64,000 bases of DNA from Peptoanaerobacter stomatis (GTDB taxonomy: Bacteria; Bacillota; Clostridia; Peptostreptococcales; Filifactoraceae), in NCBI RefSeq assembly GCF_000238095.2, contig NZ_JH815225.1, positions 1,307,863 through 1,371,862 on the forward strand, in the 5' to 3' direction. A program made the translations under genes and the position numbers. Under the pieces are notes generated by a model. It did not search any database, was not told the DNA's origin, and saw only the letters and a program-made list of their open reading frames with translations. Below are positions 28,447-55,278 of this stretch, one piece after another. Within the stretch, counting starts at the first letter, position 1. The number at the start of each line of letters is the position of its first letter.

Positions 28447-28477
28447 TTATGTAAAAAAATTAAAAGGAGTGTATGAA

Positions 28478-30505
28478 ATGATACAAAATCTTGATATTGC
28501 GAATGCTATGACAATAAAATTGGACGATGAACTTCCAAAAATGCCTAAATTTGTAGAAGGTATAAGAAGAGCTCCGGACAGAGGATTCAGATTAACTCAG
28601 GCTCAAACTGAAATAGCGCTTAAAAATGCACTTAGATATATCCCTGAAAAATATCACGAAGAACTTATTCCTGAGTTTTTAGAAGAACTTACAACAAGAG
28701 GAAGAATATACGGATACAGATTCCGTCCTGAAGGTAAATTATACGGAAAACCTATTGATGAATATAAAGGTAATTGCACAGAAGGTAAAGCTTTCCAAGT
28801 AATGATAGACAACAACCTCGATTTCGACGTTGCTCTTTATCCATATGAATTAGTAACTTACGGTGAAACAGGAAGTGTTTGCCAAAACTGGATGCAATAC
28901 AGACTTATAAAAAAATATTTGGAAGTTATAACTCAAGATCAAACATTGGTTATAGAATCAGGACATCCACTTGGATTATTCAAATCTAAACCTGACTCTC
29001 CAAGAGTAATAATATCAAACGCAATGATGATAGGTATGTTTGACAACCTACACGATTGGGAAATAGCTGAAGAAATGGGTGTTGCAAACTACGGACAAAT
29101 GACAGCCGGAGGTTGGATGTACATAGGACCTCAAGGTATAGTTCATGGAACATTCAATACAATACTTAACGCAGGAAGAATGAAATTAGGTATACCTAAT
29201 GAAGGAGATTTAAAAGGTGTATTATTTGTTACATCAGGTCTTGGCGGAATGAGTGGTGCACAAGGAAAAGCTTGCGAAATAGCAAACGGTGTTGGAATAG
29301 TTGCAGAAGTTGACTATTCAAGAATACAAACAAGATTAGATCAAGGTTGGATAAGAAAAGCTTCTGCAAATCTTGACGAAGTTTTTGCTTTAGCAAAAGA
29401 ATATCAAGACAAGAAAGAGCCTATATCAATAGCTTATCACGGAAATATAGTAGACTTGCTTGAATATGCCGACAAGCACGACATTCATATACCTCTTTTA
29501 TCTGACCAAACATCTTGCCACAACGTATATGAAGGTGGATATTGCCCACAAGGAATAACTTTTGAAGAAAGAACAAGACTTCTTGCTGAAGATCCTGAAA
29601 AATTCAGAGAATTAGTAGATAAAACTCTTGTTGCACATTTCAACGTAATCAAAAAACTTACAGCAAAAGGCTCTTACTTCTTCGATTACGGTAACTCTTT
29701 CATGAAAGCTATATATGACGCAGGAGTAAAAGAAATATCTAAAAACGGAATAGATGAAAAAGACGGTTTCATATGGCCTTCATATGTAGAGGATATAATG
29801 GGACCTCAATTATTCGATTACGGATACGGACCTTTCAGATGGGTTTGCTTAAGCGGAAAACACGAAGATTTGATAAAAACTGATAAGGCTGCTATGGACT
29901 GCATAAATCCTGACAGAAGATATCAAGACAGAGATAACTACATCTGGATAAAAGATGCAGAAAAAAATCAAATGGTAGTAGGTACACAAGCAAGAATATT
30001 ATATCAAGATGCAATAGGCAGAATAAAAATAGCACTTAAATTCAACGATATGGTTAGAAAAGGCGAAATAGGTCCTGTAATGATGGGTAGAGACCACCAT
30101 GACGTTTCAGGAACAGATTCACCATTTAGAGAAACATCAAATATAAAAGACGGTAGTAATGTAATGGCAGATATGGCTATACAATGCTTTGCAGGTAACT
30201 GCGCAAGAGGTATGAGCCTTGTTGCTATCCACAACGGTGGTGGTGTAGGTATAGGTAAATCTATAAACGGCGGATTCGGCTTGGTATTAGACGGTAGCCA
30301 CAGAGCAGACGAAATAGTAAAATCAGCTCTATCTTGGGACGTTATGAGCGGAGTTGCAAGACGTTCTTGGGCAAGAAACGAACACTCAATAGAAACAGTG
30401 TTAGAATTCAACGAAGCTAATCATGGTACAGATCACATAACTATACCATATATAGCAGATGAAAATAAAGTTAAAAGCGCTGTTGCAAAAATATTCAACA
30501 AATAA
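28478..30505 (+). CDS. hutU: Urocanate hydratase (urocanase family, long form)
   Basis: 675 aa, the long type of urocanase. YGETGSVCQNWMQY and TAGGWMYIGPQGIVHGT are the conserved segments around the catalytic NAD site, and FAGNCARGMSL lies near the C-terminal active site. The reaction adds water to urocanate, giving 4-imidazolone-5-propionate, the second step of histidine breakdown. The ATG at 28478 lies 8 bases after AAAAGGAG. An in-frame GTG nine bases upstream overlaps the site. hutI follows with its own leader; the histidine ammonia lyase with a normal active site is not in the window. A thiourocanate hydratase role is also possible, given the ergothionase-like gene at 52142. Confidence 0.93.
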   Translation: MIQNLDIANAMTIKLDDELPKMPKFVEGIRRAPDRGFRLTQAQTEIALKNALRYIPEKYHEELIPEFLEELTTRGRIYGYRFRPEGKLYGKPIDEYKGNCTEGKAFQVMIDNNLDFDVALYPYELVTYGETGSVCQNWMQYRLIKKYLEVITQDQTLVIESGHPLGLFKSKPDSPRVIISNAMMIGMFDNLHDWEIAEEMGVANYGQMTAGGWMYIGPQGIVHGTFNTILNAGRMKLGIPNEGDLKGVLFVTSGLGGMSGAQGKACEIANGVGIVAEVDYSRIQTRLDQGWIRKASANLDEVFALAKEYQDKKEPISIAYHGNIVDLLEYADKHDIHIPLLSDQTSCHNVYEGGYCPQGITFEERTRLLAEDPEKFRELVDKTLVAHFNVIKKLTAKGSYFFDYGNSFMKAIYDAGVKEISKNGIDEKDGFIWPSYVEDIMGPQLFDYGYGPFRWVCLSGKHEDLIKTDKAAMDCINPDRRYQDRDNYIWIKDAEKNQMVVGTQARILYQDAIGRIKIALKFNDMVRKGEIGPVMMGRDHHDVSGTDSPFRETSNIKDGSNVMADMAIQCFAGNCARGMSLVAIHNGGGVGIGKSINGGFGLVLDGSHRADEIVKSALSWDVMSGVARRSWARNEHSIETVLEFNEANHGTDHITIPYIADENKVKSAVAKIFNK

Positions 30506-30515
30506 ATCATAATCT

Positions 30516-30549
30516 AAAATTTGCAGTATAATTATATACTGCAAATTTT
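30516..30549 (+). terminator. Terminator of hutU
   Basis: A perfect 15-bp stem (30516-30530 with 30535-30549), 4-base loop, and T-rich right arm, 10 bases after the hutU stop. It separates hutU from hutI at the transcript level. Confidence 0.85.
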
Positions 30550-30852
30550 GTATTTATACAATATTTTATAAAAAATAATTTGAAATTAATATTATACTTT
30601 GTTAAACTTATACCAATAGCTATATTAAAAATATAATTTACAACTTATACTAAAATCTTATAGAATAACGAAAAAACATAATAATTAATTTTTCCAACAC
30701 ACTATCTATATTAATCTTATATAATTATACAAGTTATCAATAATTTTATTAGAAAATAGTATAAAAAAGCATCATAAATTATAAAATAAAAAATGCTATT
30801 TTAATCAATTATCGGCATTAAATTATGTTTATATCAAAACAAGGAGGATACT
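30550..30852. other. Intergenic region between hutU and hutI with MITE-like candidate
   Basis: About 300 bases. Includes TTATACTA at 30645-30652 and its inverted copy at 30757-30764, 120 bases overall, similar in end sequence and length to elements near 55304, 59378 and 60861; internal similarity is weak. The hutI promoter must lie in the last 90 bases. Confidence 0.4.
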
Positions 30853-32103
30853 ATGAAAAATTTACTTATAAAAAATGCAAGCGAAGTCGTAACTTGTAGT
30901 GGAAACAGAGCCAAATTCGGCAAAGAAATGTCAGAAATAAACGTTATAGAAAACGGCAGTGTAGTCATAAAAAACGGAATAATAAAAGCTGTTGGAAAAA
31001 CTGATGACATTTTAAAAGATTATGATGAAAAAAATTATGAAGTCATAGATGCTACAGGTAAATCAGTTATGCCCGGATTTGTAGACTCTCATACGCATTT
31101 CGTATTCGGAGGATATAGAGCTGAAGAGTTTTCTTGGAGACTTCGTGGCGACAGTTATATGGACATTATGAACAGAGGTGGAGGTATAGTAAACAGCGTT
31201 ACTGCTACAAGACAAGCAAGCGAAGAGGAACTCATCGAGCTTGGAAAACAAAGACTTGACTCTATGCTGTCATTTGGTGTAACTTCTGTGGAAGGCAAGA
31301 GTGGATACGGCTTGGATAAAGATACTGAGCTGAAACAACTCAGAGTTATGAAAAAACTTAATGAAATACATCCGATAGACATATCCACAACATTTTTGGG
31401 AGCTCATGCAGTACCTAAAGAATACAAAGGAAAAACTGATGAATTCATAGATTTATTGTTGGAACAAGTATTACCTGAAGTTGTAAAAGAAAATCTTGCC
31501 GAATTCTTTGACGTTTTTTGTGAAAAAGGTGTATTTTCAGTAGAAGAATCAAGAAAAATGTATCTAAAAGCCAAAGAATACGGTATGAAACTAAAAATCC
31601 ACGCTGATGAAATAGTACAGTTAGGCGGCTCAGATCTTGCTGCAGAAATGGAAATGATATCAGCAGACCACTTATTGCATGCATCAGACGAAGGCATAAA
31701 AGCAATGGCTGATAAGAAAGTAATAAACACATTGCTTCCTACAACTGCATTTTGTATAAAAGAGCCATTTGCAAGAGCAAGATTTATGATAGACAGCGGT
31801 TGTGCAGTTGCACTTGCAACAGACTTCAATCCCGGTAGCAACTTTACAAATTCTATACCTCTTATGTTTGCACTTGCATCCATATATATGAACATGAGCA
31901 TAGAAGAAGCTGTTACAGCTATGACAATAAACGGCGCTGCTGCAATTGACAAAGCCGATAAAATAGGCTCAATAGATGTCGGAAAAAAAGGAGATATAGT
32001 AATATTAAAATTCCCTTCATACAAATTCTTACCATATCACACAGCAGTAAACATAGTAGAAAAGACTATAAAAGACGGCGTTGTTGTTTGGAAAAATAAA
32101 TAG
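30853..32103 (+). CDS. hutI: Imidazolonepropionase
   Basis: 416 aa amidohydrolase. The metal-binding pair H80-T-H82 (DSHTHFVFGG), the downstream HADE, SADHLLHAS and the Asp of ALATDFNPGS are in the right order for the enzyme that opens the imidazolone ring of imidazolone propionate to formiminoglutamate. AAGGAGG lies just before the ATG. It is separated from hutU by a terminator and 300 bases, so expression is not simply coupled. The usual next enzyme (formiminoglutamase or formiminotransferase) is not in the window. Confidence 0.96.
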   Translation: MKNLLIKNASEVVTCSGNRAKFGKEMSEINVIENGSVVIKNGIIKAVGKTDDILKDYDEKNYEVIDATGKSVMPGFVDSHTHFVFGGYRAEEFSWRLRGDSYMDIMNRGGGIVNSVTATRQASEEELIELGKQRLDSMLSFGVTSVEGKSGYGLDKDTELKQLRVMKKLNEIHPIDISTTFLGAHAVPKEYKGKTDEFIDLLLEQVLPEVVKENLAEFFDVFCEKGVFSVEESRKMYLKAKEYGMKLKIHADEIVQLGGSDLAAEMEMISADHLLHASDEGIKAMADKKVINTLLPTTAFCIKEPFARARFMIDSGCAVALATDFNPGSNFTNSIPLMFALASIYMNMSIEEAVTAMTINGAAAIDKADKIGSIDVGKKGDIVILKFPSYKFLPYHTAVNIVEKTIKDGVVVWKNK

Positions 32104-42681: not shown

Positions 42682-44982
42682 TTACTCACTCCAAACAATA
42701 ATGATAGAATTCGTAGAATTAATCCAGTCCACTTGGCAGTTGAGATTTTCAGCTCCAAAACGTAGTGGTACAAAAGTACGTGCATTAATAACTTTCGGCT
42801 CTATATCCATTTTTTCGTTTTTTCCGTTCTTAACAAGTTTCTTTTTATTAATCCACATCTTAACTGAATTTCCACTTGCTTTCAGAGAAACTTCCTGCGT
42901 TGAGTATTCCCAACCTACAGTACCGTCCATAGCCTCAACAATCGCACGAATCGGAACAACAGTACGTCCTCTTAATACAATCGGTGCTGTTCCTTTGCCA
43001 GGATCAACTTCCTGAATAATACCGTCTACACTCATCTTAGGATCATCAATCTTAAGCATAATGAAATGACGTGTAGCTGATTTATTTTTAAATCCCTGTC
43101 CTATAAATTCTGATGTTGTTGTTTTCCATCTTGCAAGAGTATCGCCTATTTCTTCTCTCTTTCCGTTCAAAGGATCGGCTTCAGCAAGAATTTCCTTTAA
43201 AGTGTAATAATAAGTGGTATTAGGCTCAGCATTTACATCTGTAAAGTTTGTAGAAGTTATATAAAAATCTGTTACAGAAATTCCAAGACTGTCTTCACTT
43301 TCAGAGCGATATAGACGATATCCTATTGCTCCAGTTCTCTTAAAATCAACAGTTACCCCTGTAACTCCGTTAAATGCGGATGTAGTTGATTTTGCAGTAC
43401 CGTCTGTTATTTCTATTGGAACCGCTTTATTTTCAGCCGGTTTACCTGTATTTGCAGGTTTTTTAGTTTCAGTAGGTGTAGGTTTATTTACAGGCTCGTT
43501 TATCTGAGAAGCAGGTTTAGCATTTCCTCCTACCGTCAATGAAACATCGTCAAAATATGCGTCTGTCTCACCATTTTTACGTATTCCCCAAAGTTCTACA
43601 CGAGCTTTTACAGCTCCTACAGGCATTCTCTCAGAAATATTTAATCTGTACCAGCTACTTTTTGAACCTTGTGCTTTTGATTGTTTTATTACATTGTCTG
43701 AATTATCAAGAAATTTCAATACTATTTGGCTCTCATCCGGCGGATTCTGGTCCCAATTACAACTTTGTGTACTTAATTCAACAGTTTGACCTGCATTATA
43801 TCCGCTTAAAGAAACATCTTGATATATACATGGATTATTTTGAGGAGACCATACCAAATATTTACCGTGAACAGCTTTATATCTCTCATTCTCTACCATC
43901 TCTTGGGAATTCCAAGTTCCTTCAGCCTCTACCCAATATGACAGTCCCTCTTCGAAACTTGGATTTTTAAGAAGATTTTCTCCAACTGTACCGCTTTGAT
44001 TTTCGCTGACTTTCTTAGCTGAAGGTAACTCGCTGCTCCATTCACATACAAATGGGAATGTTGTAGAATAATTATCATAACCTCCGAAAAAGTCTACCCA
44101 TTTCCAACTTTCAGCTCTGGCAGCAATAAGATAATTTTCTCCTCTTCCAAGACCGTTATTAGGTTCTATCGGAGAATTCCAATACGTAAAACTCCAAGCT
44201 TCACCGTTCATCCATTTCCATTCACCTTCCTGCTCTCTGTCAGTTCCGCCTATTATATAGGCTATTGCATTTTGTTCTGAAAAAAGAGTTTTAAGGAAGT
44301 CATTTTCGCTTTCACTTGTTATAGTTGCCAAATATCCTCCCATTTCCTTACAACGCTTTTCTGCAACTTCAGGAGTTACAGATTCTGAAACTATCAGATA
44401 TGTGTGCCCGTTAAAAGTCCTTAAATCTGCATTTTTAGGAATATTTTCAGTGCTTCCACTTAAATACTCATCATTCGTTTCTTTAGGAGTGATCTGAGAA
44501 GAAGAACTGTTGTCTTGAACTCCTTTTAATTCAACAAACGGAATAAAGTTTGATGCAACGCTTGAACTCCATGTTTCAGGAGAAGAGTCATATATATAAT
44601 ATTGTCCGGGTTCTATTATTATATCCGGAAATACATCCCAGTTTACCTTTTGTGCGCCTGAACTGCCACGAGCCTCAGCATTCCACGAACCTATGCTGTT
44701 TCCTTTATCATCATAAAGTGATATCGTTCCGGGATCCATACCTCTACCGTTGTTCCAGTGATAAGTGGTAATTGACTTCAAACTGTACCTTTTTGTAATT
44801 TCAAACATAAAACTGGTGTATCCTTTAGGATTGTTTTGTGTAGCATCAGTTTTAAAGCTTGACAAAAAAACATCATAATCGTCTATTCCGTAAGCAAATG
44901 AAATATGTACCATCATTCCTGCGCACAGTACAAATGCCGTAAGTATAGAACACAATTTCTTAAAATAATTTACTTTAAACAT
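42682..44982 (-). CDS. Secreted C-type-lectin, CBM and copper-amine-oxidase-N domain protein
   Basis: 766 aa. A signal peptide (about 1-30) precedes an unassigned beta domain (35-155). A C-type lectin-like domain lies at about 188-315 (TYLIVSESVTPEVAEKRC, ending FPFVCEWSS). A CBM4/9-like carbohydrate-binding domain follows from about 335 (NLLKNPSFEEGLSYW). After a Pro/Lys/Thr linker and fibronectin-like segment, two copper-amine-oxidase-N-like repeats end the protein (GRTVVPIRAIVEAMDGTVGW). The protein probably binds surface glycans or wall material. AAGGGGG precedes the ATG. It is monocistronic and divergent to the BTAD-type regulator. Confidence 0.8.
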   Translation of the reverse strand: MFKVNYFKKLCSILTAFVLCAGMMVHISFAYGIDDYDVFLSSFKTDATQNNPKGYTSFMFEITKRYSLKSITTYHWNNGRGMDPGTISLYDDKGNSIGSWNAEARGSSGAQKVNWDVFPDIIIEPGQYYIYDSSPETWSSSVASNFIPFVELKGVQDNSSSSQITPKETNDEYLSGSTENIPKNADLRTFNGHTYLIVSESVTPEVAEKRCKEMGGYLATITSESENDFLKTLFSEQNAIAYIIGGTDREQEGEWKWMNGEAWSFTYWNSPIEPNNGLGRGENYLIAARAESWKWVDFFGGYDNYSTTFPFVCEWSSELPSAKKVSENQSGTVGENLLKNPSFEEGLSYWVEAEGTWNSQEMVENERYKAVHGKYLVWSPQNNPCIYQDVSLSGYNAGQTVELSTQSCNWDQNPPDESQIVLKFLDNSDNVIKQSKAQGSKSSWYRLNISERMPVGAVKARVELWGIRKNGETDAYFDDVSLTVGGNAKPASQINEPVNKPTPTETKKPANTGKPAENKAVPIEITDGTAKSTTSAFNGVTGVTVDFKRTGAIGYRLYRSESEDSLGISVTDFYITSTNFTDVNAEPNTTYYYTLKEILAEADPLNGKREEIGDTLARWKTTTSEFIGQGFKNKSATRHFIMLKIDDPKMSVDGIIQEVDPGKGTAPIVLRGRTVVPIRAIVEAMDGTVGWEYSTQEVSLKASGNSVKMWINKKKLVKNGKNEKMDIEPKVINARTFVPLRFGAENLNCQVDWINSTNSIIIVWSE

Positions 44983-45460
44983 AATTTTTACCCCCTTATT
45001 TTTTATTATTTATGTTTAAAAAACGCTTTTTAAATAAACTATAAAAAGTGTTTTCCTACTTTTAATTATAGAAATACAGACGTTTTTAGTCAATTAAGTT
45101 TCCTTATTTGTCACTTGACAATATCAGAAATTTTTACCTGTTTATAACTTAATTGAAAACAGAAATTATATTTGCCAAAAATATTTAGTAATAAAGAAAT
45201 CTAATTCAACATTGGCATTATTTTTGCAAAATTAGATATAATTATCAAATAAATATAAAATTTATGTTATAATATATCATAATTTTTTACCTACATTTTA
45301 TATTTGTCAACAAATAAAAATTTATGACAAGTCTATAAAATTGGAAATTATTTTTAAGACTTTCATAGCGAAATGAGTGATAAGCTATGAACTTAACGTC
45401 TTTTAAAATAAATATATTACAATATTATACCTTGTGAGAATAAATATGGGAGAAAGAACT
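44983..45460. other. Divergent intergenic region
   Basis: About 480 AT-rich bases between the secreted lectin-domain gene and a plus-strand regulator gene; it must hold both promoters. TTGACA at 45116-45121 and TGTTATAAT at 45265-45273 are promoter-like but not well spaced together. No RNA gene or repeat was recognised. Confidence 0.4.
45265..45273 (+). promoter_or_regulatory. Candidate extended -10 for the BTAD-type regulator
   Basis: TGTTATAAT fits an extended -10 (TGn plus TATAAT), about 190 bases before the gene. No -35 is apparent; low confidence in such AT-rich DNA. Confidence 0.3.
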
Positions 45461-48025
45461 ATGAAAACTTTAGAAGTACGGCTATATGGTGGAACACGCA
45501 TATTGGCTGATGGAAAGGAAATAGAGTTTCCTTTTATGAAGTCTGCTTTGCTGCTCATAATTTTATCTGATAAGAAATCATACAGCAGAAAAAAACTTCA
45601 ACTTATGCTATGGCATGATAAAAACGAGCAAAAAGCTGACAGAAATTTGAGAAATACAATATACGTAATAAAACAAAAATTGGGAGGAGATGTTATTTTA
45701 ACGGAGAAAAATTCCAAAATAAGACTCAATGAAAACATATCCGTTTTAAATGACTTGGACATTATAAACTCTTTGGAATATAAAGATATGTGCAAAGATG
45801 ATTTGCAGAATATATACTCGTATTTTTCTGATGAAATTTTTGAAGATTTGAATTTTGAATACGGTATATCCCTTGATGATTACATAAGAAATTTCAAAAA
45901 TATATATAACGAAAATATATACAGAAAATTAATCGAAATATCTCAACATTTTATGCATGTAATGAATTATGAAAATGTAATTATAACTTGCGAATTTATG
46001 ATTAAGCTCAATGAATATGACGAAACACCTTATAAAAATCTTATAACCGCCTATAATTCACTTGGCATATTCTCAAAAATAGCTGAAATAGACAAGAAAA
46101 TGTCAGATATTTTCGGATATGACGCAAACGCTGATAAAATCGCCAATATAGGTAACGAATATTATAGAGATGATCAAATATTTTATACACTTTCAGAGAT
46201 AACAAAATTTAATCAAGGTGAAAAATACAGGCATATAGGAATAAAAGGAGCAAGCGGCAGCGGTAAAACCGAAATATTAAACAGTATCAAGCTACAACAA
46301 AACAATGACACAAAGATAATTGATTATAGTATTTCCAATGGATATACACCTTGTAAATACGAAGTTTTCAACTATATAATAAATAAAATAAGAAACAATT
46401 TATTGCTTGATTCTTCATCTTTATATGATATAGTGGCAAACGGACAAAAAGTTATACTCATAATAGATAATTTAGATTTGTCGGATGTCGAATCGATAGA
46501 AGAACTGTTCAACTTCATAATACGCTCTGAAAATAAAATACTTCTTATAGCTACTTATAGTATGGACTTAGATAACAAACTCACATATTTTTTAAACTCA
46601 CTTTCTACAGAAGACCTTTTTACAGAAATAAAACTCGGAAATCTCAACTTTAACGATTTAAAAAAAGCATATTCAAATTTAAGTGATGAGCAAATAAACA
46701 ATCTCATTGTTCAAAGCGGAGGAAATCCGTTTTTAATAAATTATTTGATGAATAACGGAGTTACAAAAGAGATGTATAACGCTTTTATGAGCGTAAATCT
46801 TTCCTGTAAAACACAGACATCTCTTAGAATACTCAATTTATTATCTATAATGAAAAACCGAGTTGATATAAATACACTATCAGACATCTTGAATATTGAT
46901 GTCGATAAAGTTGTACAAGAAGTATCACAGCTTATAAACAGAGGAATACTCATAGAAAATACAGAGCAGGATTATGTCGAAATTGAATTTTGCAACAATC
47001 TACAAAAAGAGTACATCTGTTCGTCTATCAAAAATATAGAAAAACAATATATTCACAAAAAGATTGCTGATTATTATGAAAGCATACTATGTGATAATTA
47101 TAGCATAGACAACAAATACTACACCATAATAATATATCATCTTACCATGGCAAAATATATGGATAAAGCATTCATATATAAATGTAAACAATTTAACAAA
47201 ATATATAATATTTCGCACGAATTTTTCCCTATTGCGCTTGATGAAGAATACAGCTATTCCGTAAATTTCAATATAGATGAAAATATGTTTAAAAACAAAT
47301 ATGAAGAGCTTATGGAAGAAATGGATAATCTTAAAAACAAATATAGTGAAACCATACTGAAAGTCAAAATAAATATGCTCTTTTGCTATGCAAGATTTTA
47401 TAAGAGTATAGGCAAGTTTGACGAAGCTCAGGAAAAATTAAATGAGATACTCAGACTATCAGAATCATTGGATTATTTTATAGGAATCTTCCAGGCACAT
47501 CTTCAATTCATTCAATATTCCATAAATATAAATGATTTGAAAATGATGAAATCACATTTAAAAACCCTCCACAACGATTACAAAGATATGATGAGCGAAG
47601 TACAATATGCTATTTACCTAAGATTTAAAGGATATTATGACGTTCTTGAACATAATTTTAAAAGCGGTATACAAAAAGTAGAAGAAGCGCAAGAAATATT
47701 CAAAAAACAACATAAACTTTATAAGATGAAATTCAATATAGCCGCTTGTAGCTTTGTAAAAGGAGAAGCAAAGTTTTTACAAAATGAATTTGATGACGCT
47801 TTTGAATACTATATGGACGCAATCTCCATTTGCCATGACAAAGAAATACATCCATCTCTTGCCCTGTTATTTTCAAGATTAGGTCTTGTACGATTAAAGC
47901 AACAATCATTTGACGAAGCTAAATATTACTTCGAAAAATCGCTAAAACAGTATAACACAGTAGGATTTTCTTGGGGAAAAGAACAACTGTATTCTCATAT
48001 TGATAAAATATATAAGTCAAAATGA
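45461..48025 (+). CDS. BTAD/SARP-type transcriptional regulator with AAA ATPase and TPR-like repeats
   Basis: 854 aa. Residues about 1-95 form an OmpR-like winged helix (KTLEVRLYGGTRILADG and the RRKKLQLMLW stretch), then a BTAD-type helical domain to about 215. A NTPase module follows with P-loop GASGSGKT at 263-270 and a Walker B VILIIDNLD. The C-terminal third shows degenerate TPR-like helical repeats. The architecture is that of SARP/MalT-type regulators that switch on nearby operons. It starts at the ATG 45461 with GGGAG upstream. It precedes the molybdenum hydroxylase operon, which may be its target. Confidence 0.8.
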   Translation: MKTLEVRLYGGTRILADGKEIEFPFMKSALLLIILSDKKSYSRKKLQLMLWHDKNEQKADRNLRNTIYVIKQKLGGDVILTEKNSKIRLNENISVLNDLDIINSLEYKDMCKDDLQNIYSYFSDEIFEDLNFEYGISLDDYIRNFKNIYNENIYRKLIEISQHFMHVMNYENVIITCEFMIKLNEYDETPYKNLITAYNSLGIFSKIAEIDKKMSDIFGYDANADKIANIGNEYYRDDQIFYTLSEITKFNQGEKYRHIGIKGASGSGKTEILNSIKLQQNNDTKIIDYSISNGYTPCKYEVFNYIINKIRNNLLLDSSSLYDIVANGQKVILIIDNLDLSDVESIEELFNFIIRSENKILLIATYSMDLDNKLTYFLNSLSTEDLFTEIKLGNLNFNDLKKAYSNLSDEQINNLIVQSGGNPFLINYLMNNGVTKEMYNAFMSVNLSCKTQTSLRILNLLSIMKNRVDINTLSDILNIDVDKVVQEVSQLINRGILIENTEQDYVEIEFCNNLQKEYICSSIKNIEKQYIHKKIADYYESILCDNYSIDNKYYTIIIYHLTMAKYMDKAFIYKCKQFNKIYNISHEFFPIALDEEYSYSVNFNIDENMFKNKYEELMEEMDNLKNKYSETILKVKINMLFCYARFYKSIGKFDEAQEKLNEILRLSESLDYFIGIFQAHLQFIQYSININDLKMMKSHLKTLHNDYKDMMSEVQYAIYLRFKGYYDVLEHNFKSGIQKVEEAQEIFKKQHKLYKMKFNIAACSFVKGEAKFLQNEFDDAFEYYMDAISICHDKEIHPSLALLFSRLGLVRLKQQSFDEAKYYFEKSLKQYNTVGFSWGKEQLYSHIDKIYKSK

Positions 48026-48216: not shown

Positions 48217-48684
48217 TTGAACATACAGTTTAAAATTAATGAAAAGCAGATGAATATGGAAGTAGATCCTACAAAAAGACTTATAGATTTTTTGAGGGAC
48301 GATTTAAATTTAAAAGGTGTAAAAGAAGGCTGCTCCGAAGGAGAATGCGGCGCCTGTACTGTGATTATGGATTCTAAAGCTGTTACAAGCTGTACAGTTC
48401 TTACAGGGCAAATAAATAATACGGAAATAATTACAATAGAAGGCTTGGAAAAAAATGGACAGCTTGACAAAATACAAAAAGCTTTTATAGATAACGGTGC
48501 AATACAATGCGGATTTTGCACACCCGGAATGATACTCAGTATAAAAGCTCTTATGATGAACAATGAAAATCCTACTATGGAAGATGTAAAAGAAGCAATC
48601 GAAGGCAATCTATGCAGATGTACAGGATATGCGAGCATATTCGATGCAACAAGGGCATTATTAGCGGAGGCTCAAAATGAATAA
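48217..48684 (+). CDS. Molybdenum hydroxylase 2Fe-2S subunit
   Basis: 155 aa, usual length for the small subunit of xanthine dehydrogenase-type enzymes. An N-terminal plant-ferredoxin-type cluster site (CSEGECGAC plus a downstream Cys) and a C-terminal site (CGFCTPGM and CRCTGY) bind two 2Fe-2S clusters that move electrons from the molybdenum site to FAD. It starts at TTG 48217, 8 bases after AAGGGGTG. It overlaps the FAD-subunit gene. First gene of the three-gene operon. Confidence 0.95.
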   Translation: MNIQFKINEKQMNMEVDPTKRLIDFLRDDLNLKGVKEGCSEGECGACTVIMDSKAVTSCTVLTGQINNTEIITIEGLEKNGQLDKIQKAFIDNGAIQCGFCTPGMILSIKALMMNNENPTMEDVKEAIEGNLCRCTGYASIFDATRALLAEAQNE

Positions 48685-49531
48685 TTTTTATCAGCCAAAT
48701 AATGAAAAAGAACTTGTAGAAGTGTTAAAACTGAAAGATGAAAACACAATACTTTTAGCAGGTGCCACTGATGTTATGGTAGAAATGAAACAAAAGAGAA
48801 TATTTAATAAAGATTTTATAGATTTGACAAAAATATCAGAATTTAATTTTATTGAAGAATTTGATGACAATGTACAAATAGGCTCTATCACAAAAATACA
48901 AGACATTGCTGACAACGATATAATAAAAGATAATTTTCATTCTCTTGCCACTGCAACAAGACATGTGGGTTCAAAACAGATAAGAAACAGAGCTACAATA
49001 GGCGGCAATGTAGCAAATGCTTCTCAAAGTGCAGATACACTACCGGTATTATTCAGCTTGAATGCACTATGTGAAGTTATAAACTCAAACGGCATTAAAA
49101 GAACATTAAAAGTTGATGACTTGATAATAGGAAGAGGTAAGACAAATCTTGAAAAAGATGAAGTGATTACAAAAATAATCATACCTAAGACTTCAAAATA
49201 CAACTACTTTTCCAAACTCGGTTCAAGAAAAGAAGTTACAATTTCAAAAATAAACTGTGGCAGTGTGTTTATACTGAAGGATTTTCAAATAGAAAAATCT
49301 CATATATATATAGGGGCTATTGGAATAAAGGCTATAAACGCAATAGAATTGGAGCAATATTTTAACGGAAAAAATATACGTCAAATAGAAGATGAACAAA
49401 TTAGAAAAATAGGTTTTGATATAGTTGAAAAAGCTATACCTAACAGAGAGTCAAAGTATTATAAAAGACAAGCAATTTATGGTATTTTGAGCGATATATT
49501 GGAAGAATTGAGGCATGACAATGGAATATAA
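48677..49531 (+). CDS. Molybdenum hydroxylase FAD-binding subunit
   Basis: 284 aa, matching the medium subunit (CoxM/XdhB-type). LLAGATDVMVEMKQ, the ATIGGNVANASQSAD segment and KLGSRKEVTISKI are typical FAD-binding blocks. Electrons leave through FAD to NAD or another acceptor. The ATG lies after GGAGG inside the end of the 2Fe-2S subunit gene, an 8-base overlap that indicates coupled translation. Confidence 0.93.
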   Translation: MNNFYQPNNEKELVEVLKLKDENTILLAGATDVMVEMKQKRIFNKDFIDLTKISEFNFIEEFDDNVQIGSITKIQDIADNDIIKDNFHSLATATRHVGSKQIRNRATIGGNVANASQSADTLPVLFSLNALCEVINSNGIKRTLKVDDLIIGRGKTNLEKDEVITKIIIPKTSKYNYFSKLGSRKEVTISKINCGSVFILKDFQIEKSHIYIGAIGIKAINAIELEQYFNGKNIRQIEDEQIRKIGFDIVEKAIPNRESKYYKRQAIYGILSDILEELRHDNGI

Positions 49532-51788
49532 ATATTTAGGTAAAAGAATTATGAGAGAAGACTCATATGAACGTGCCATAGGAAAAACTCAGTACACTCT
49601 CGATATGGAGAGAAAAGATGTCTTATTTGCAAAACTTATATTATCCACAAAAGCCCACGCAAAGTACAGCTTGGATATAAGTGAAGCTGTAAAAGTGGAC
49701 GGTATAGTAAAAATATATACATCTAAAGACGTAGAGCATACCAACTATTACAACTCTATGGAATGGTTCACAGGCATACAGGGAAAAAGAGATGAAAAAC
49801 TGATAAACGATGTGGCAAGATTTGTAGGTGACAGAATAGGAATAGTAGTCGGAAAAAGCAAAGATTCCGTTGAAAAAGCACTTGCAAAAATAAAAGTAAA
49901 TTACGAAGAATTAAAAGCGGTCGTAGATCTCAAAGATTCTATAAAAGATGAATTTATAATTAAAAATGATACTAACTTATGTTATAAAAAATCAATAGCC
50001 TATGGGGATTTCGAGCAGTCAAAAAAGGATGCCGACTATATAGTAAAGACAAGCGGTTCTACTCAAAAAATTCATCACTTGGCAATAGAACCTCATATAT
50101 GTTTAAGTGAAATAGATATTTTCGGTAATCTTATAGTTTGGACACCATGTCAAGTGGCTTTTGCCGTTCAAATGCACATATCAAGAATACTCGATTTTCC
50201 TTACAACAAGGTAAGAGTCATAAAGTCCAATATGGGAGGCTCGTTCGGAGGCAAACAACAGCCGATATTAGAGCCGTTATCAGCATTTATAACACTTGAT
50301 TTGAAAAAACCTATAATGCTTTATATGGATAGATATGACACATTAGTAGGCACTGTTTCAAGAAATCCTGTACAAGTGGATATTGAAACTGCGGTTACTA
50401 AAGAAGGAAAGATTCTCGGCAGAAAAATAGATGCATATGTAGACGGCGGAGCATATGATACAAATGCCACAAGTATAGTAAACGCTTTTATGAAAAAACT
50501 TTTCAGATTGTACGAAATACCAAGTCAATGTGCAGAAGGTAAATCATATTATACCAATACAATTCCAGGCGGCGCAGCAAGAGCATACGGCGGACCGCAG
50601 TCACATGCAATCAGCGAGTTGAATATTGATGACGTCGCAAGAAAATTAAATATGGATCCTTGCGAATTAAGATTACTTAATTTAGCAAAACCATATCAAG
50701 ATGACCCTACAGGCGGACCGAATTTGGGAAATGCACAAGTAATAGAGTGTATGAAACAAGGTATGGAAAGATTCGATTGGTACAAAAGAAAAGAAAATAT
50801 ATACAAAAAAAATACCGACAGATACGCATACGGTATTGGAGTTGCTGCTGCGACTCATGGAAACGGATATAAAGGCGCATTTCCTGATTTTTGTAATGTT
50901 GAATTTACACTTTTCAGTGATTCAACCGCACTTGTGAAAATATCCGTTCATGAACAAGGCTGTGGTACAATAGCATCATTGACTCAGATAGCTGCTGAAG
51001 CACTTGATCTTGAACCTGCAAAAATCAGAATGACAGAAGCGGATACTTTATACACACCTTATGATGCTGCTGGAACTCAAGCGAGCAGAGTTACATTTGT
51101 AAACGGTGGCGCAATAAAAAAAGCAGGCGAGCAATTAAGAGAAAAATTAATCGATACAGCAGTTCAATTAAAAAATTTTGATAGAAAAGATGTATATACA
51201 GATAACGGAAAAGTATTTTGTAAAAAAACAGGTGAAAGTGTAGATTACAGCGAACTTGTAAAATTTGCCGAAAAAAATAATTTTGAAGCCATGACAGTAT
51301 ACGTGCATCATGAACAGGAGGCAAATCCTGCATCATTTGCAGTATTTTTTGTAGAAGTAAAAATTGATAAATACACAGGAATAGTTGAAATAACAGATTC
51401 GTTAGCTGTTCATGACATAGGTCAGTCTGTAAACCCTTCACTCGTAGAAGGACAGATTTATGGTGGAGCGCATATGAGTCTCGGCATGGCATTAAGCGAA
51501 GAAATTGTCTATGATGAAAAAGGCAATGTAAAGACAAATTCTTTATCCAAATATCATATATTAAACTCTCAGGATATGCCTAAAATAGATATATTACTCA
51601 TAGAGTCGGAAGATGAATCCGCTCCGTACGGCATCAAAAGCGTGGGCGAAATGAGCTGTGTTGCTCCGGCACCGGCTGTTATAAACGCTATAAATAACGC
51701 TCTTGGAACAAATATCACGAATTATCCTGCAACACCTGAAAAAATAATCGAAGCTATAGTAGAAAAGGAAAGTAGTATAAATAATTAA
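49515..51788 (+). CDS. Molybdenum-binding subunit, xanthine dehydrogenase-like
   Basis: 757 aa large subunit. GGSFGGKQQ lies near the molybdopterin-cytosine site, GAARAYGGPQ carries the Arg that contacts the substrate in the family, and KSVGEMSC holds the catalytic Glu. Substrates of homologues include xanthine, nicotinate and aldehydes; the sequence here does not settle which. The gene order 2Fe-2S, FAD, molybdenum is common in clostridial operons. It lies 350 bases upstream of an ammonia-lyase homologue. A link to that gene is possible but not shown. Confidence 0.9.
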   Translation: MTMEYKYLGKRIMREDSYERAIGKTQYTLDMERKDVLFAKLILSTKAHAKYSLDISEAVKVDGIVKIYTSKDVEHTNYYNSMEWFTGIQGKRDEKLINDVARFVGDRIGIVVGKSKDSVEKALAKIKVNYEELKAVVDLKDSIKDEFIIKNDTNLCYKKSIAYGDFEQSKKDADYIVKTSGSTQKIHHLAIEPHICLSEIDIFGNLIVWTPCQVAFAVQMHISRILDFPYNKVRVIKSNMGGSFGGKQQPILEPLSAFITLDLKKPIMLYMDRYDTLVGTVSRNPVQVDIETAVTKEGKILGRKIDAYVDGGAYDTNATSIVNAFMKKLFRLYEIPSQCAEGKSYYTNTIPGGAARAYGGPQSHAISELNIDDVARKLNMDPCELRLLNLAKPYQDDPTGGPNLGNAQVIECMKQGMERFDWYKRKENIYKKNTDRYAYGIGVAAATHGNGYKGAFPDFCNVEFTLFSDSTALVKISVHEQGCGTIASLTQIAAEALDLEPAKIRMTEADTLYTPYDAAGTQASRVTFVNGGAIKKAGEQLREKLIDTAVQLKNFDRKDVYTDNGKVFCKKTGESVDYSELVKFAEKNNFEAMTVYVHHEQEANPASFAVFFVEVKIDKYTGIVEITDSLAVHDIGQSVNPSLVEGQIYGGAHMSLGMALSEEIVYDEKGNVKTNSLSKYHILNSQDMPKIDILLIESEDESAPYGIKSVGEMSCVAPAPAVINAINNALGTNITNYPATPEKIIEAIVEKESSINN

Positions 51789-52141
51789 AATATTATTAAA
51801 CAAGCATCAAAACGCTTTATAATAAACAATATATCAAATTTTAATATTTTTACACTTATTTATTAAAGTTAGATTTTAATGTAGATTTACCAATTTTGTA
51901 AAAATATATCTTAAAAATTATCTTGCCTAAAATATGTATAAAACAATAATTTTATATGTTAAGCTTGATAATTTTAAAGATATATCTTATATAATTATTT
52001 TCAAATAAATATTCATACACAATTATCCAAATGCAAGTATTAAAACGTAATTTTTTATAATAATTAAATTTAATTGTAAATGTTTCAAAATTTATAAAAA
52101 TTATTTATTTGAAAATGTAAAAAATGTTTTAGGAGGGAGAT
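51789..52141. other. Intergenic region, nothing recognised
   Basis: About 350 AT-rich bases between the molybdenum subunit and the ammonia-lyase homologue. Must hold the next gene's promoter. No convincing hairpin or RNA was recognised. Confidence 0.35.
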
Positions 52142-53644
52142 ATGGATACAAAAATTCTAAATGGAAGTAATCTCACACTTGAAGATGTGTACAACATTTC
52201 GTTCAACTATCAGAAAGTGGATGTAGATGAAGAAGCAAAAGAAAGAGTTGCAAAAGCAAGACAAGTATTGTTCGATATGGCGGCTGAAGGCAAGCCTGTA
52301 TACGGACTTAACAGAGGTGTAGGTTGGAACAAGGACAAAGAATTTGATCAGGATTTTTTCACTCAATATAATAAAAATCTTCTGAATACACACTGCTTAG
52401 GAGTACCGCCTTATCACAGCGAAGAAGATGTAAGAGCAATTTTACTTTTAAGACTTAACAAGGTTTTGTCAGGTCATACAGGTATGTCACTTGAACTTAT
52501 GCAAGCATATGTAGATTTTTTAAATCATAGAATTCATCCAAGAGTTCCTATGAGAGGTTCAATAGGTGAAGCCGATATAACAACACTAAGTCATATAGGA
52601 CTTGCTTTTATAGGCGAAGAAGACGTTACATATAAAGGTGAAGTCATGAATTCCAAAAAAGCTATGGATATGGAAGGACTGAAACCTATAATATTAGGAC
52701 CTAAAGACGGTCTTAGCATAGTGTCATCAAATGCACAAGGTGAGGCTATGGCTGTTATGGCACTGAGAGAAATCGAAGAAATAGTAGATTTATCAAACAT
52801 AATATTTTGTTTAAGCCTTGAAGGTCTAAACGGAGTTATGGAACAATTAAGAGAAGATGTAAACGTTACAAGAGGAATATATGGACAAATAAAAGTTGCA
52901 AGAGATTGCAGAAATTATTTAAAAGGAAGTTTCCTTCACGATAAAGACCCTGAAAGAGCACTTCAAGATCCTCTAAGCTTCAGATGCGCACACTCAATAA
53001 ACGGAAGTATTTTAGACGAACTCGAATTTGTAAAAAAATACCTTAATATTCAGCTTAATACTACTGATGACAACCCTTGTATAATACTTGAAGAAAACTC
53101 ATCATTTGTAAGTGCAAATTTTGAAACTACAACTCTTGCAGTAGGTATAGAAATGCTTGCAACAGGACTTAGCCATTTATCAAAATCATCCTGCTACAGA
53201 ACTATAAAACTTGCAGATCCGGCATTTACAAAACTCACAAGATTTTTAACTGCCAAAGAAGTAGAAAGTATAGCATATGGAACAATACAAAAAACATTCA
53301 CTATGCTTGATACTCAAAACAGAGGACTTGCAAATCCGAATTCAATGGATTTTTATTCACTTGCCGGCACAATAGAAGACCATGCATCAAACCTTCCGCT
53401 TGCCGCATCAAGATTATACAAAATAGTGGATAACATAAGATATATAATCGGAATAGAAGCTATGCACGCCGTTCAAGCAATAGATTTAAGAGGTAACCAT
53501 AAACTCGGTGAGGTTACATCAAAAGCATACAAAATAATAAGAGAAGAAATACCATTTTTGGATAAAGACAGAAATTTGAGTAAAGATATTCAAAAAATAT
53601 ACAATATTATTAAATCAAATAAACTTCTTGAAATTATAAGATAA
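52142..53644 (+). CDS. Histidine ammonia-lyase homologue without MIO triad, probable ergothionase
   Basis: 500 aa, HAL/PAL fold throughout: YGLNRGVGW, LQDPLSFRCAHSINGSILDEL, TTDDNPC and the EDHASN segment align with histidine ammonia-lyase. The Ala-Ser-Gly that cyclises to the MIO cofactor is replaced: GSVGASGDL of HAL is here GSIGEADI (residues 139-146). So ordinary histidine deamination is unlikely. Ergothionases are, from memory, MIO-free HAL homologues that eliminate trimethylamine from ergothioneine. A BCCT betaine transporter follows in the operon, which supports that. The ATG lies after TAGGAGGGAG. Expression with hutU is separate. Confidence 0.82.
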   Translation: MDTKILNGSNLTLEDVYNISFNYQKVDVDEEAKERVAKARQVLFDMAAEGKPVYGLNRGVGWNKDKEFDQDFFTQYNKNLLNTHCLGVPPYHSEEDVRAILLLRLNKVLSGHTGMSLELMQAYVDFLNHRIHPRVPMRGSIGEADITTLSHIGLAFIGEEDVTYKGEVMNSKKAMDMEGLKPIILGPKDGLSIVSSNAQGEAMAVMALREIEEIVDLSNIIFCLSLEGLNGVMEQLREDVNVTRGIYGQIKVARDCRNYLKGSFLHDKDPERALQDPLSFRCAHSINGSILDELEFVKKYLNIQLNTTDDNPCIILEENSSFVSANFETTTLAVGIEMLATGLSHLSKSSCYRTIKLADPAFTKLTRFLTAKEVESIAYGTIQKTFTMLDTQNRGLANPNSMDFYSLAGTIEDHASNLPLAASRLYKIVDNIRYIIGIEAMHAVQAIDLRGNHKLGEVTSKAYKIIREEIPFLDKDRNLSKDIQKIYNIIKSNKLLEIIR

Positions 53645-53677
53645 TTAAATTTAATACATAAAAAGGAGTGCTATAAA

Positions 53678-55225
53678 ATGGAAAACCAAAAGAAAAATAT
53701 AAGATGGGAAGTTTTCGTACCGTCTTTTATACTTGTAGCATTAGCTGCAATAATAGGTATAGTAAATAATCAAGCTTTGACAGAAACATCAAACAAATTT
53801 TTTGCCTGGTCTCTTGAAAGCTTCGGTTGGCTGTATCAATGGGTTACAATCATAACTTTATTTCTTGTGTTCGCATTATTATTTTCTAAAATCGGAAGTA
53901 TAAAAATAGGCGGAAAAGATGCAAAGCCTAAATACTCTTTCGGCACATGGTTTGCAATGACACTTACAGGTGGGGTTGCAACAGGTATAGTTACTTGGGG
54001 AGTAAATGAGCCTCTTATATATTTAGGAAATATTTACGGAGAACTTGAAACTCTCGGAATAGAACCGGGAAGTGCAGAGGCTGTAAGATTTGCAATAGGC
54101 AGATGCTTTTACAACTGGACATTTTTACCATACGCTTTATATGCTTTGACAGGTGTAATAGTTGCATATGTATACTTCAACAAGAAAAAACAATTAAACG
54201 TAACATCTACATTAGAGCCTTTATTTGGCGAAAAAGTTAGAAAAGGCGCTTTTGCAAGTGTGGTAGATACTCTTTCTATGCTTGCTATAGTTCTTGGTCT
54301 TTGCTCAGGTCTTACTATGTGCATAGTTTTAATAAGTACAGGTATAAGCTATTCATATAAAGTAGATGTCACACTTCCACTTTTCATAGGAATTGGTGTG
54401 CTTATAATTGCGGCATTTACATTATCTTCTTATGTCGGACTTGACAACGGTCTTAAAAAATTGGCAGGATTAAATGCATATTTTTATTATGGACTTTTAA
54501 TACTTATAATAGTTACAGGTCCTACACTTTTCATACTTAGAAATACAACAGCAGGTATGGCTGAATGGTTGCAAAATTTCTGGTCTTGGGGATTGGACCC
54601 TATAGATATAGGTGGAGCCGCACTTACTCGTTCATGGACACTGTTCGACTGGTCAGTATGGATTGCTTATGCTCCTGTTACAGGAATATTCTTAGGACAA
54701 ATATCTTATGGTAGAACTATAAGACAATGCTTGATAATAAATCTTATATTACCTGCAATATTCGGTATAATTTGGTTCGGAGTTTGGGGTAATGCAGCTA
54801 TAAATATGCAAATTACAAACCAAGTGGATCTTGTAAGCACTATACAAAATGCCAATTCGGTTACGGCTCTATATCAGTTCATAGAAAATATGCCGTTCGG
54901 TCTTGGAACAATATTAATACCTATAAATATATTTGTAATCCTTATTTCATTCGTTACAGCAGCCGATGCAACTGCAAACAACGTAGCATCTATGTGCATA
55001 AAAGACATACCTATAGGTTCTGAAGCTCCCGGATCTTTAAAAATATTATGGGGAGTTACAATAGGTATAATAGCTATAATAATGGCTGCATTCGGCGGTG
55101 GAGAGCAAGGTGTTCAAGGTGTTAAATCACTTGCAGCCGCAGGAGGTTTCGTAGTTTTATTCATATTCATATTACAAATAATTTCAAGTATAAAAATGTT
55201 TTTTATAGATAAAATAGAAGAATAA
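53678..55225 (+). CDS. BCCT-family betaine-type transporter
   Basis: 515 aa, about 12 membrane segments. GGVATGIVTWGVNEP fits the G-x-W substrate-binding region of betaine/carnitine/choline transporters, and DWSVWIAYAPVTGIFLGQ with ISYGRTIR is the signature stretch with the family's tryptophans. Family members carry trimethylammonium compounds. It starts 33 bases after the MIO-less lyase with AAAAGGAG upstream, so ergothioneine, a trimethylbetaine, is the likely substrate. A strong terminator ends the operon. Confidence 0.9.
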   Translation: MENQKKNIRWEVFVPSFILVALAAIIGIVNNQALTETSNKFFAWSLESFGWLYQWVTIITLFLVFALLFSKIGSIKIGGKDAKPKYSFGTWFAMTLTGGVATGIVTWGVNEPLIYLGNIYGELETLGIEPGSAEAVRFAIGRCFYNWTFLPYALYALTGVIVAYVYFNKKKQLNVTSTLEPLFGEKVRKGAFASVVDTLSMLAIVLGLCSGLTMCIVLISTGISYSYKVDVTLPLFIGIGVLIIAAFTLSSYVGLDNGLKKLAGLNAYFYYGLLILIIVTGPTLFILRNTTAGMAEWLQNFWSWGLDPIDIGGAALTRSWTLFDWSVWIAYAPVTGIFLGQISYGRTIRQCLIINLILPAIFGIIWFGVWGNAAINMQITNQVDLVSTIQNANSVTALYQFIENMPFGLGTILIPINIFVILISFVTAADATANNVASMCIKDIPIGSEAPGSLKILWGVTIGIIAIIMAAFGGGEQGVQGVKSLAAAGGFVVLFIFILQIISSIKMFFIDKIEE

Positions 55226-55257: not shown

Positions 55258-55278
55258 ACCCCCATTTCAAATGGGGGT
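55258..55278 (+). terminator. Terminator of the lyase-BCCT operon
   Basis: ACCCCCATTT and its complement (55258-55267 with 55269-55278; in practice an 8-bp GC-rich stem with a 5-base loop), followed by TTTATTTTTTTT. Strong intrinsic terminator. Confidence 0.93.

Follow-up and report, generated by a model that had tools for sequence, protein, structure and literature searches.

A probable ergothioneine-catabolic gene cluster with a MIO-less lyase in Peptoanaerobacter stomatis

Humans have a dedicated transporter for ergothioneine, a dietary antioxidant, and trimethylamine gives rise to TMAO. The Burkholderia-type aerobic catabolism of ergothioneine (Beliaeva 2021) reportedly starts with an ergothionase and includes a thiourocanate hydratase. 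Another pathway (doi 10.1021/jacs.4c09350), as outlined in PMC12771579 and PMC13405746, runs from an ergothionase to a C–S-cleaving enzyme of the xanthine oxidase family: a gut xanthine oxidase homologue reductively cleaves the aromatic C–S bond in ergothioneine catabolism (PMC12771579, citing Feng et al.), and thiourocanate desulfhydrase frees H2S from thiourocanic acid (PMC13405746). The lyase itself has been characterized in Treponema denticola (6s7j and 6s7q; doi 10.1002/chem.201901866), and in bacteria the quaternary-amine carrier EgtU/EgtUV is known to take up ergothioneine (PMC9732360). Here, we report a locus of Peptoanaerobacter stomatis, contained in a 64,000-nucleotide stretch of DNA that was analysed as a whole (the window), in which an ergothionase likewise accompanies an enzyme of the xanthine oxidase family. 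We find that positions 48217–55225 very probably form an anaerobic ergothioneine-catabolic cluster, apparently of lateral origin, that combines predicted import by a BCCT carrier, the lyase and predicted XdhABC-type desulfuration, with a probable AAA/TPR regulator upstream and with HutU, HutI and FTCD encoded outside it. The types of enzyme and pathway are already known; what this locus adds is correct names for its genes, a view of how far the operon extends and a set of residue markers.

Organization of the locus

A preliminary description had proposed ergothioneine use from the lyase and transporter genes. The grouping of the lyase with ergothionases and its linkage to a BCCT gene bear this out; of 20 named ergothionase loci, taken with flanks of 10 kb as far as the contig reached, 18 have a BCCT gene. 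The description had missed the Mo enzyme (48217–51788), the regulator (45434–48025) and hutU/hutI (28469–32103), with which 'ergothioneine use' becomes an almost complete catabolic pathway. The features are as follows.

28469–30505, plus strand: HutU, urocanate hydratase, outside the operon (TIGR01228, 441 bits; cut-off 375)
30853–32103, plus strand: HutI, imidazolonepropionase, a downstream step (TIGR01224, 470 bits; cut-off 298)
45434–48025, plus strand: large AAA/TPR regulator, probable pathway regulator (TPR and weak AAA Pfam matches; SARP/BTAD-like by inspection)
48217–48684, plus strand: [2Fe-2S] subunit of a xanthine-dehydrogenase-family Mo enzyme (PF01799, PF00111)
48677–49531, plus strand: FAD-binding subunit of the same Mo enzyme (PF00941; homologues in 18 of 20 named ergothionase loci)
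49515–51788, plus strand: Mo-cofactor subunit, predicted large subunit of thiourocanate desulfhydrase (PF02738/PF20256; clade support 0.97)
52142–53644, plus strand: ergothionase (ergothioneine trimethylamine-lyase) with a MIO-less HAL fold (500 aa; 72% identity to 6s7j; clade support 1.0)
53678–55225, plus strand: BCCT-family transporter, predicted ergothioneine importer (515 aa; PF02028; own ergothionase-linked clade)
55258–55278, plus strand: likely intrinsic terminator closing the operon (9-pair stem followed by a T-run; consensus match only)

The BCCT gene lies 33 bases 3′ of the lyase gene, as had been described, and in most relatives XdhA, lyase and BCCT genes are consecutive, with gaps near zero. 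With flanks of 1.5 kb, XdhA was present at three of three ergothionase loci (L003–L005), and neither XdhA nor BCCT was found at any of 27 control loci of MIO-containing HALs. Homologues of the regulator stand beside ergothionase at seven loci (L042, L043, L046, L047, L048, L050 and L051), and by inspection an eighth (L044) has a truncated one near it. A search for RNA elements across the window found none. The minus strand at 42682–44982 encodes a 766-aa protein with a C-type lectin domain and a copper amine oxidase N-terminal domain.

A lyase without the MIO triad

The lyase reading frame starts with ATG, immediately preceded by the ribosome-site-like GGAGGGAG, and its product matches the aromatic amino acid lyase family (PF00221, 433 bits). 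At the position of the MIO loop it has PMRGSIGEADITTLSH, as against PLKGSVGASGDLAPLAH in HAL; in the alignment Ala142 of HAL is replaced by Glu143, Ser143 is deleted, Gly144 is replaced by Ala144 and Asp145 is retained. The Ala-Ser-Gly triad, from which MIO arises by cyclisation, is therefore missing from the lyase, and the cofactor cannot form, in agreement with the earlier observation that GEAD stands in place of the GASGD of HAL. The deletion is not a chance event: none of the 44 members of the ergothionase clade has the triad serine, whereas each of the 30 HALs examined has it.

The best PDB match of the lyase is the T. denticola ergothionase 6s7j (834 bits, full length), followed by the probable HAL 7tqr with 243 bits. 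Identity to 6s7j is 72% over 497 residues and compares with 26% to Pseudomonas putida HAL and about 26–30% to HALs in general. The preliminary description had named a grouping of the lyase with true HALs as an outcome that would refute it; in a tree of 79 sequences, for which 6s7j and P. putida HAL were taken from structure-search alignments, the lyase falls instead with 6s7j in the 44-member MIO-less clade (support 1.0), and all 30 MIO-HALs lie outside it. A true HAL was ruled out by the tree, the loop and the hutH model score (371 bits, under the cut-off of 539).

Residues outside the loop also mark the clade. In P. putida numbering, Tyr280 is replaced by Leu in all 44 members and Asn195 by Ser in 41, and Lys occupies position 384 of the window lyase in 42; Tyr54, His84, Gln275, Arg281 and Glu412 (P. 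putida Tyr53, His83, Gln277, Arg283 and Glu414) are retained in all 44, and these five together with Lys384 are identical in 6s7j. The lyase has the signature loop GSIGEADITT, along with Lys384, Glu412 and Tyr54. The T. denticola enzyme shows the same replacement of the MIO loop and, in the columns of the HAL active site that were compared beyond the loop, the same residues, but has GEGD rather than GEAD, with Gly144 in place of Ala. The predicted action of the window lyase on ergothioneine is supported by homology and synteny. A plasmid search for proteobacterial ergothionases returned only matches of at most 40% identity, none of them known to be characterised. Two divergent ergothionase-like proteins (L063 and L068, 51–52% identity) occur in genomes without the Mo enzyme, and their substrate may differ; at L063 the adjoining gene encodes a sodium/proline-type symporter in place of a BCCT.

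A linked molybdenum enzyme

The three genes at 48217–51788 encode a complete Mo hydroxylase architecture, with FeS, FAD and Mo subunits and a catalytic Glu (Glu712 of the Mo subunit). A homologue of the Mo subunit lies near ergothionase in all 20 named loci and belongs to the same clade in 19; beside the ergothionase of Peptoniphilus catoniae (L036:6514-9285) stands a distant 923-aa aldehyde-oxidoreductase-like Mo protein that is 25% identical and has GQG. At five loci (L045–L048 and L050) the Mo gene is transcribed divergently and its product shares only some 31% identity, and still this product falls in the linked clade (support 0.97). Across 393 genomes of the order, the linked clade was found in 20 of the 22 that have ergothionase and in none of the other 371 (Fisher p about 1e-31, shared ancestry ignored). 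Membership here means a score of at least 674 bits, a cut set post hoc; all such sequences have GCG, and the next group scores at most 630 bits (620–630). MoaA, for cofactor synthesis, is encoded elsewhere in the genome, and several relatives have XdhC/CoxI, MobA-like or MoaA genes near the cluster.

The cofactor loop distinguishes the linked subunits. In the window protein, His479 and Cys483 lie in the motif HEQGCGT, and H-[ED]-x-G-C-G is found in 35 of 35 ergothionase-linked Mo subunits of the clade; 4-hydroxybenzoyl-CoA reductase, Rhodobacter capsulatus XDH, nicotinate dehydrogenase and the genome's own XDH paralogues have x-G-Q-G, and the nearest non-linked group (L100–L109) has GNG where the linked clade has GCG. 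The Gln of GQG corresponds to a cofactor-loop residue of bovine XDH (Gln1040), which makes Cys483 a candidate active-site residue. The linkage and co-occurrence with ergothionase, together with the reported C–S-cleaving xanthine oxidase homologue, indicate that the enzyme is likely a thiourocanate desulfhydrase.

The BCCT transporter

PF02028 covers essentially the full length of the transporter (378 bits, residues 12–508), which groups with ergothionase-linked BCCTs at 61–79% identity; several ergothionase loci have BCCTs of other clades. At two loci (L071 and L077) a BCCT of the linked clade directly adjoins ergothionase with no Mo gene within 1.5 kb. FYWAWW, the aromatic box that CaiT and DddT have in common with the solved trimethylamine transporter, is lost in the window protein, which has FDWSVW ([FY]D[WF]xxW in its clade). 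Deletion of betP in Corynebacterium glutamicum marginally raised ergothioneine production (PMC12689799), which suggests that BCCTs may carry ergothioneine and that BetP itself may import it weakly. The linked clade, the changed aromatic box and this hint from BetP together make it plausible that the window BCCT is an ergothioneine importer, a role predicted from homology and synteny. Apart from BetP of C. glutamicum, we found in the literature no BCCT assigned as an ergothioneine carrier. The predicted role resembles that of EgtU/EgtUV, but these are ABC transporters, whereas the window has a secondary carrier.

Downstream steps for urocanate

The window HutU passes the urocanase cut-off only; against the thiourocanate hydratase model NF058530 it scores 308 bits, under the cut-off of 930, and a route through HutU acting as thiourocanate hydratase was therefore rejected. 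No thiourocanate hydratase was found in the window. The locus shares its first step, ergothionase, with the Burkholderia-type aerobic pathway, but differs in that the window lacks the hydratase used there and has a canonical HutU. Because HutU is a canonical urocanase far below the NF058530 cut-off, the sulfur is probably removed before the ring is hydrated. HutU, HutI and an FTCD-domain protein encoded elsewhere in the genome (C2:255570) could carry urocanate towards glutamate.

Distribution and origin

Ergothionase occurs in the 22 genomes of the order noted above and is absent from both other genomes of the genus and from all eight others of the family. The closest relatives of the lyase (68–74% identical) come from Peptoniphilus and Anaerosphaera (Tissierellales), Acidaminococcus (Negativicutes) and Treponema (spirochaetes); ergothionases of the same order are 46–55% identical to it. 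With the closest relatives in other lineages and none in the genus or family, this pattern is most simply read as lateral acquisition of the operon. Ergothionase of the T. denticola type, mostly with the operon, is present in Peptoniphilus, Anaerosphaera, Acidaminococcus, Sedimentibacter, Oscillibacter, 'Fusobacterium naviforme' and the order of the window. A 2026 survey that used the Burkholderia sequence as query concluded that only a small number of genera have ergothionase (PMC13405746).

Another HAL-like family lacking the MIO triad

Five named ergothionase loci encode a second HAL-like protein, outside the window, with GSVGYLS where HAL has GSVGASGDLAP, a replacement by which this family, too, lacks MIO.

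L033:14556-16052, L034:13179-14681, L041:4590-6200, L049:13244-14785 and L051:13221-14762: members of this second MIO-less family, with the HAL fold and the GSVGYLS loop

The family shares the Asn195-to-Ser and Tyr280-to-Leu replacements with ergothionases and scores just under the HAL cut-offs of NCBIfam. It occurs in 23 of the 393 genomes of the order, 14 of which also have ergothionase. In the order survey, 19 of 29 second-family loci have a BCCT within 1.5 kb, and some of these BCCTs form a sister clade of the ergothionase-linked ones. A literature search on the family found no paper. Our guess is that the family may release trimethylamine from a different amino-acid betaine, hercynine being one candidate.

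Alternative readings

The HAL fold, the PF00221 match and a hutH score that is weak and below its cut-off would fit an atypical ammonia-lyase that acts on histidine or another amino acid without MIO; given the clade-wide deletion of the MIO serine and 72% identity to a characterised ergothionase, we regard this as extremely unlikely. The same genome also encodes a separate canonical HAL with ASGD (C1:1840904-1842400), so histidine breakdown need not rely on the 52142–53644 protein. The main substrate could instead be a related trimethylammonium compound, such as ergothioneine sulfonate, hercynine or S-methyl-ergothioneine: the T. denticola ergothionase is reported to accept ergothioneine sulfonic acid as well (Maurer 2019), and NCBIfam holds a family of S-methyl thiourocanate hydratases. 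An adjacent desulfurising Mo enzyme, however, makes sense only if the product keeps its thione sulfur, and the window HutU is canonical rather than of the S-methyl type, which renders a related main substrate improbable.

The Mo enzyme shows a general match to XdhA models (537 bits; cut-off 780) and might be a purine or nicotinate hydroxylase that adjoins the lyase by chance. Such an enzyme would hardly show near-perfect co-occurrence with ergothionase, a clade separate from the other XDH paralogues of the genome and the diagnostic GCG motif, and we consider a chance neighbour highly improbable. For the transporter, ordinary import of the osmolyte glycine betaine, or transport of trimethylamine, is an unlikely reading that carries some weight, in that BCCTs usually move betaines and the closest solved structure is the trimethylamine transporter (204 bits); import of ergothioneine is favoured by a clade that tracks ergothionase, by the loss of the FYWAWW box and by the betP result, according to which BCCTs may carry ergothioneine (PMC12689799).

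A proposed pathway

We propose that the BCCT carrier would import ergothioneine, from which the MIO-less lyase would eliminate trimethylamine by acid/base catalysis to give thiourocanate, as reported for the T. denticola homologue; since trimethylammonium leaves readily as it is, the lyase would need no MIO. The XdhABC-type Mo enzyme, if it is the same enzyme as the one described, would then reductively strip the sulfur as H2S to yield urocanate, which HutU, HutI and FTCD could convert towards glutamate, with the AAA/TPR protein encoded upstream probably regulating the cluster.

Three elements are fresh: the Cys of the Mo subunit that tracks ergothionase, the ergothionase-linked BCCT clade and the second MIO-less HAL-like family. 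Taken jointly they allow a tentative reading, possible but somewhat short of an even chance, in which the linked BCCT clade would be a dedicated ergothioneine carrier, the Mo enzyme would be a reductive C–S lyase with Cys483 (replacing the usual Gln of GQG) and His479 specific for removal of the thione sulfur, and the second MIO-less family would be a further trimethylamine-lyase, for example for hercynine.

Routine annotation would misname the lyase, whose nearest curated family model is that of HAL. A simple way of finding the pathway in genomes and metagenomes is to look for the GEAD loop, for GCG in the Mo subunit and for the order of genes in the operon. With a lyase 72% identical to a solved ergothionase, next to a likely transporter and a predicted desulfurising Mo enzyme, this bacterium probably feeds on ergothioneine.
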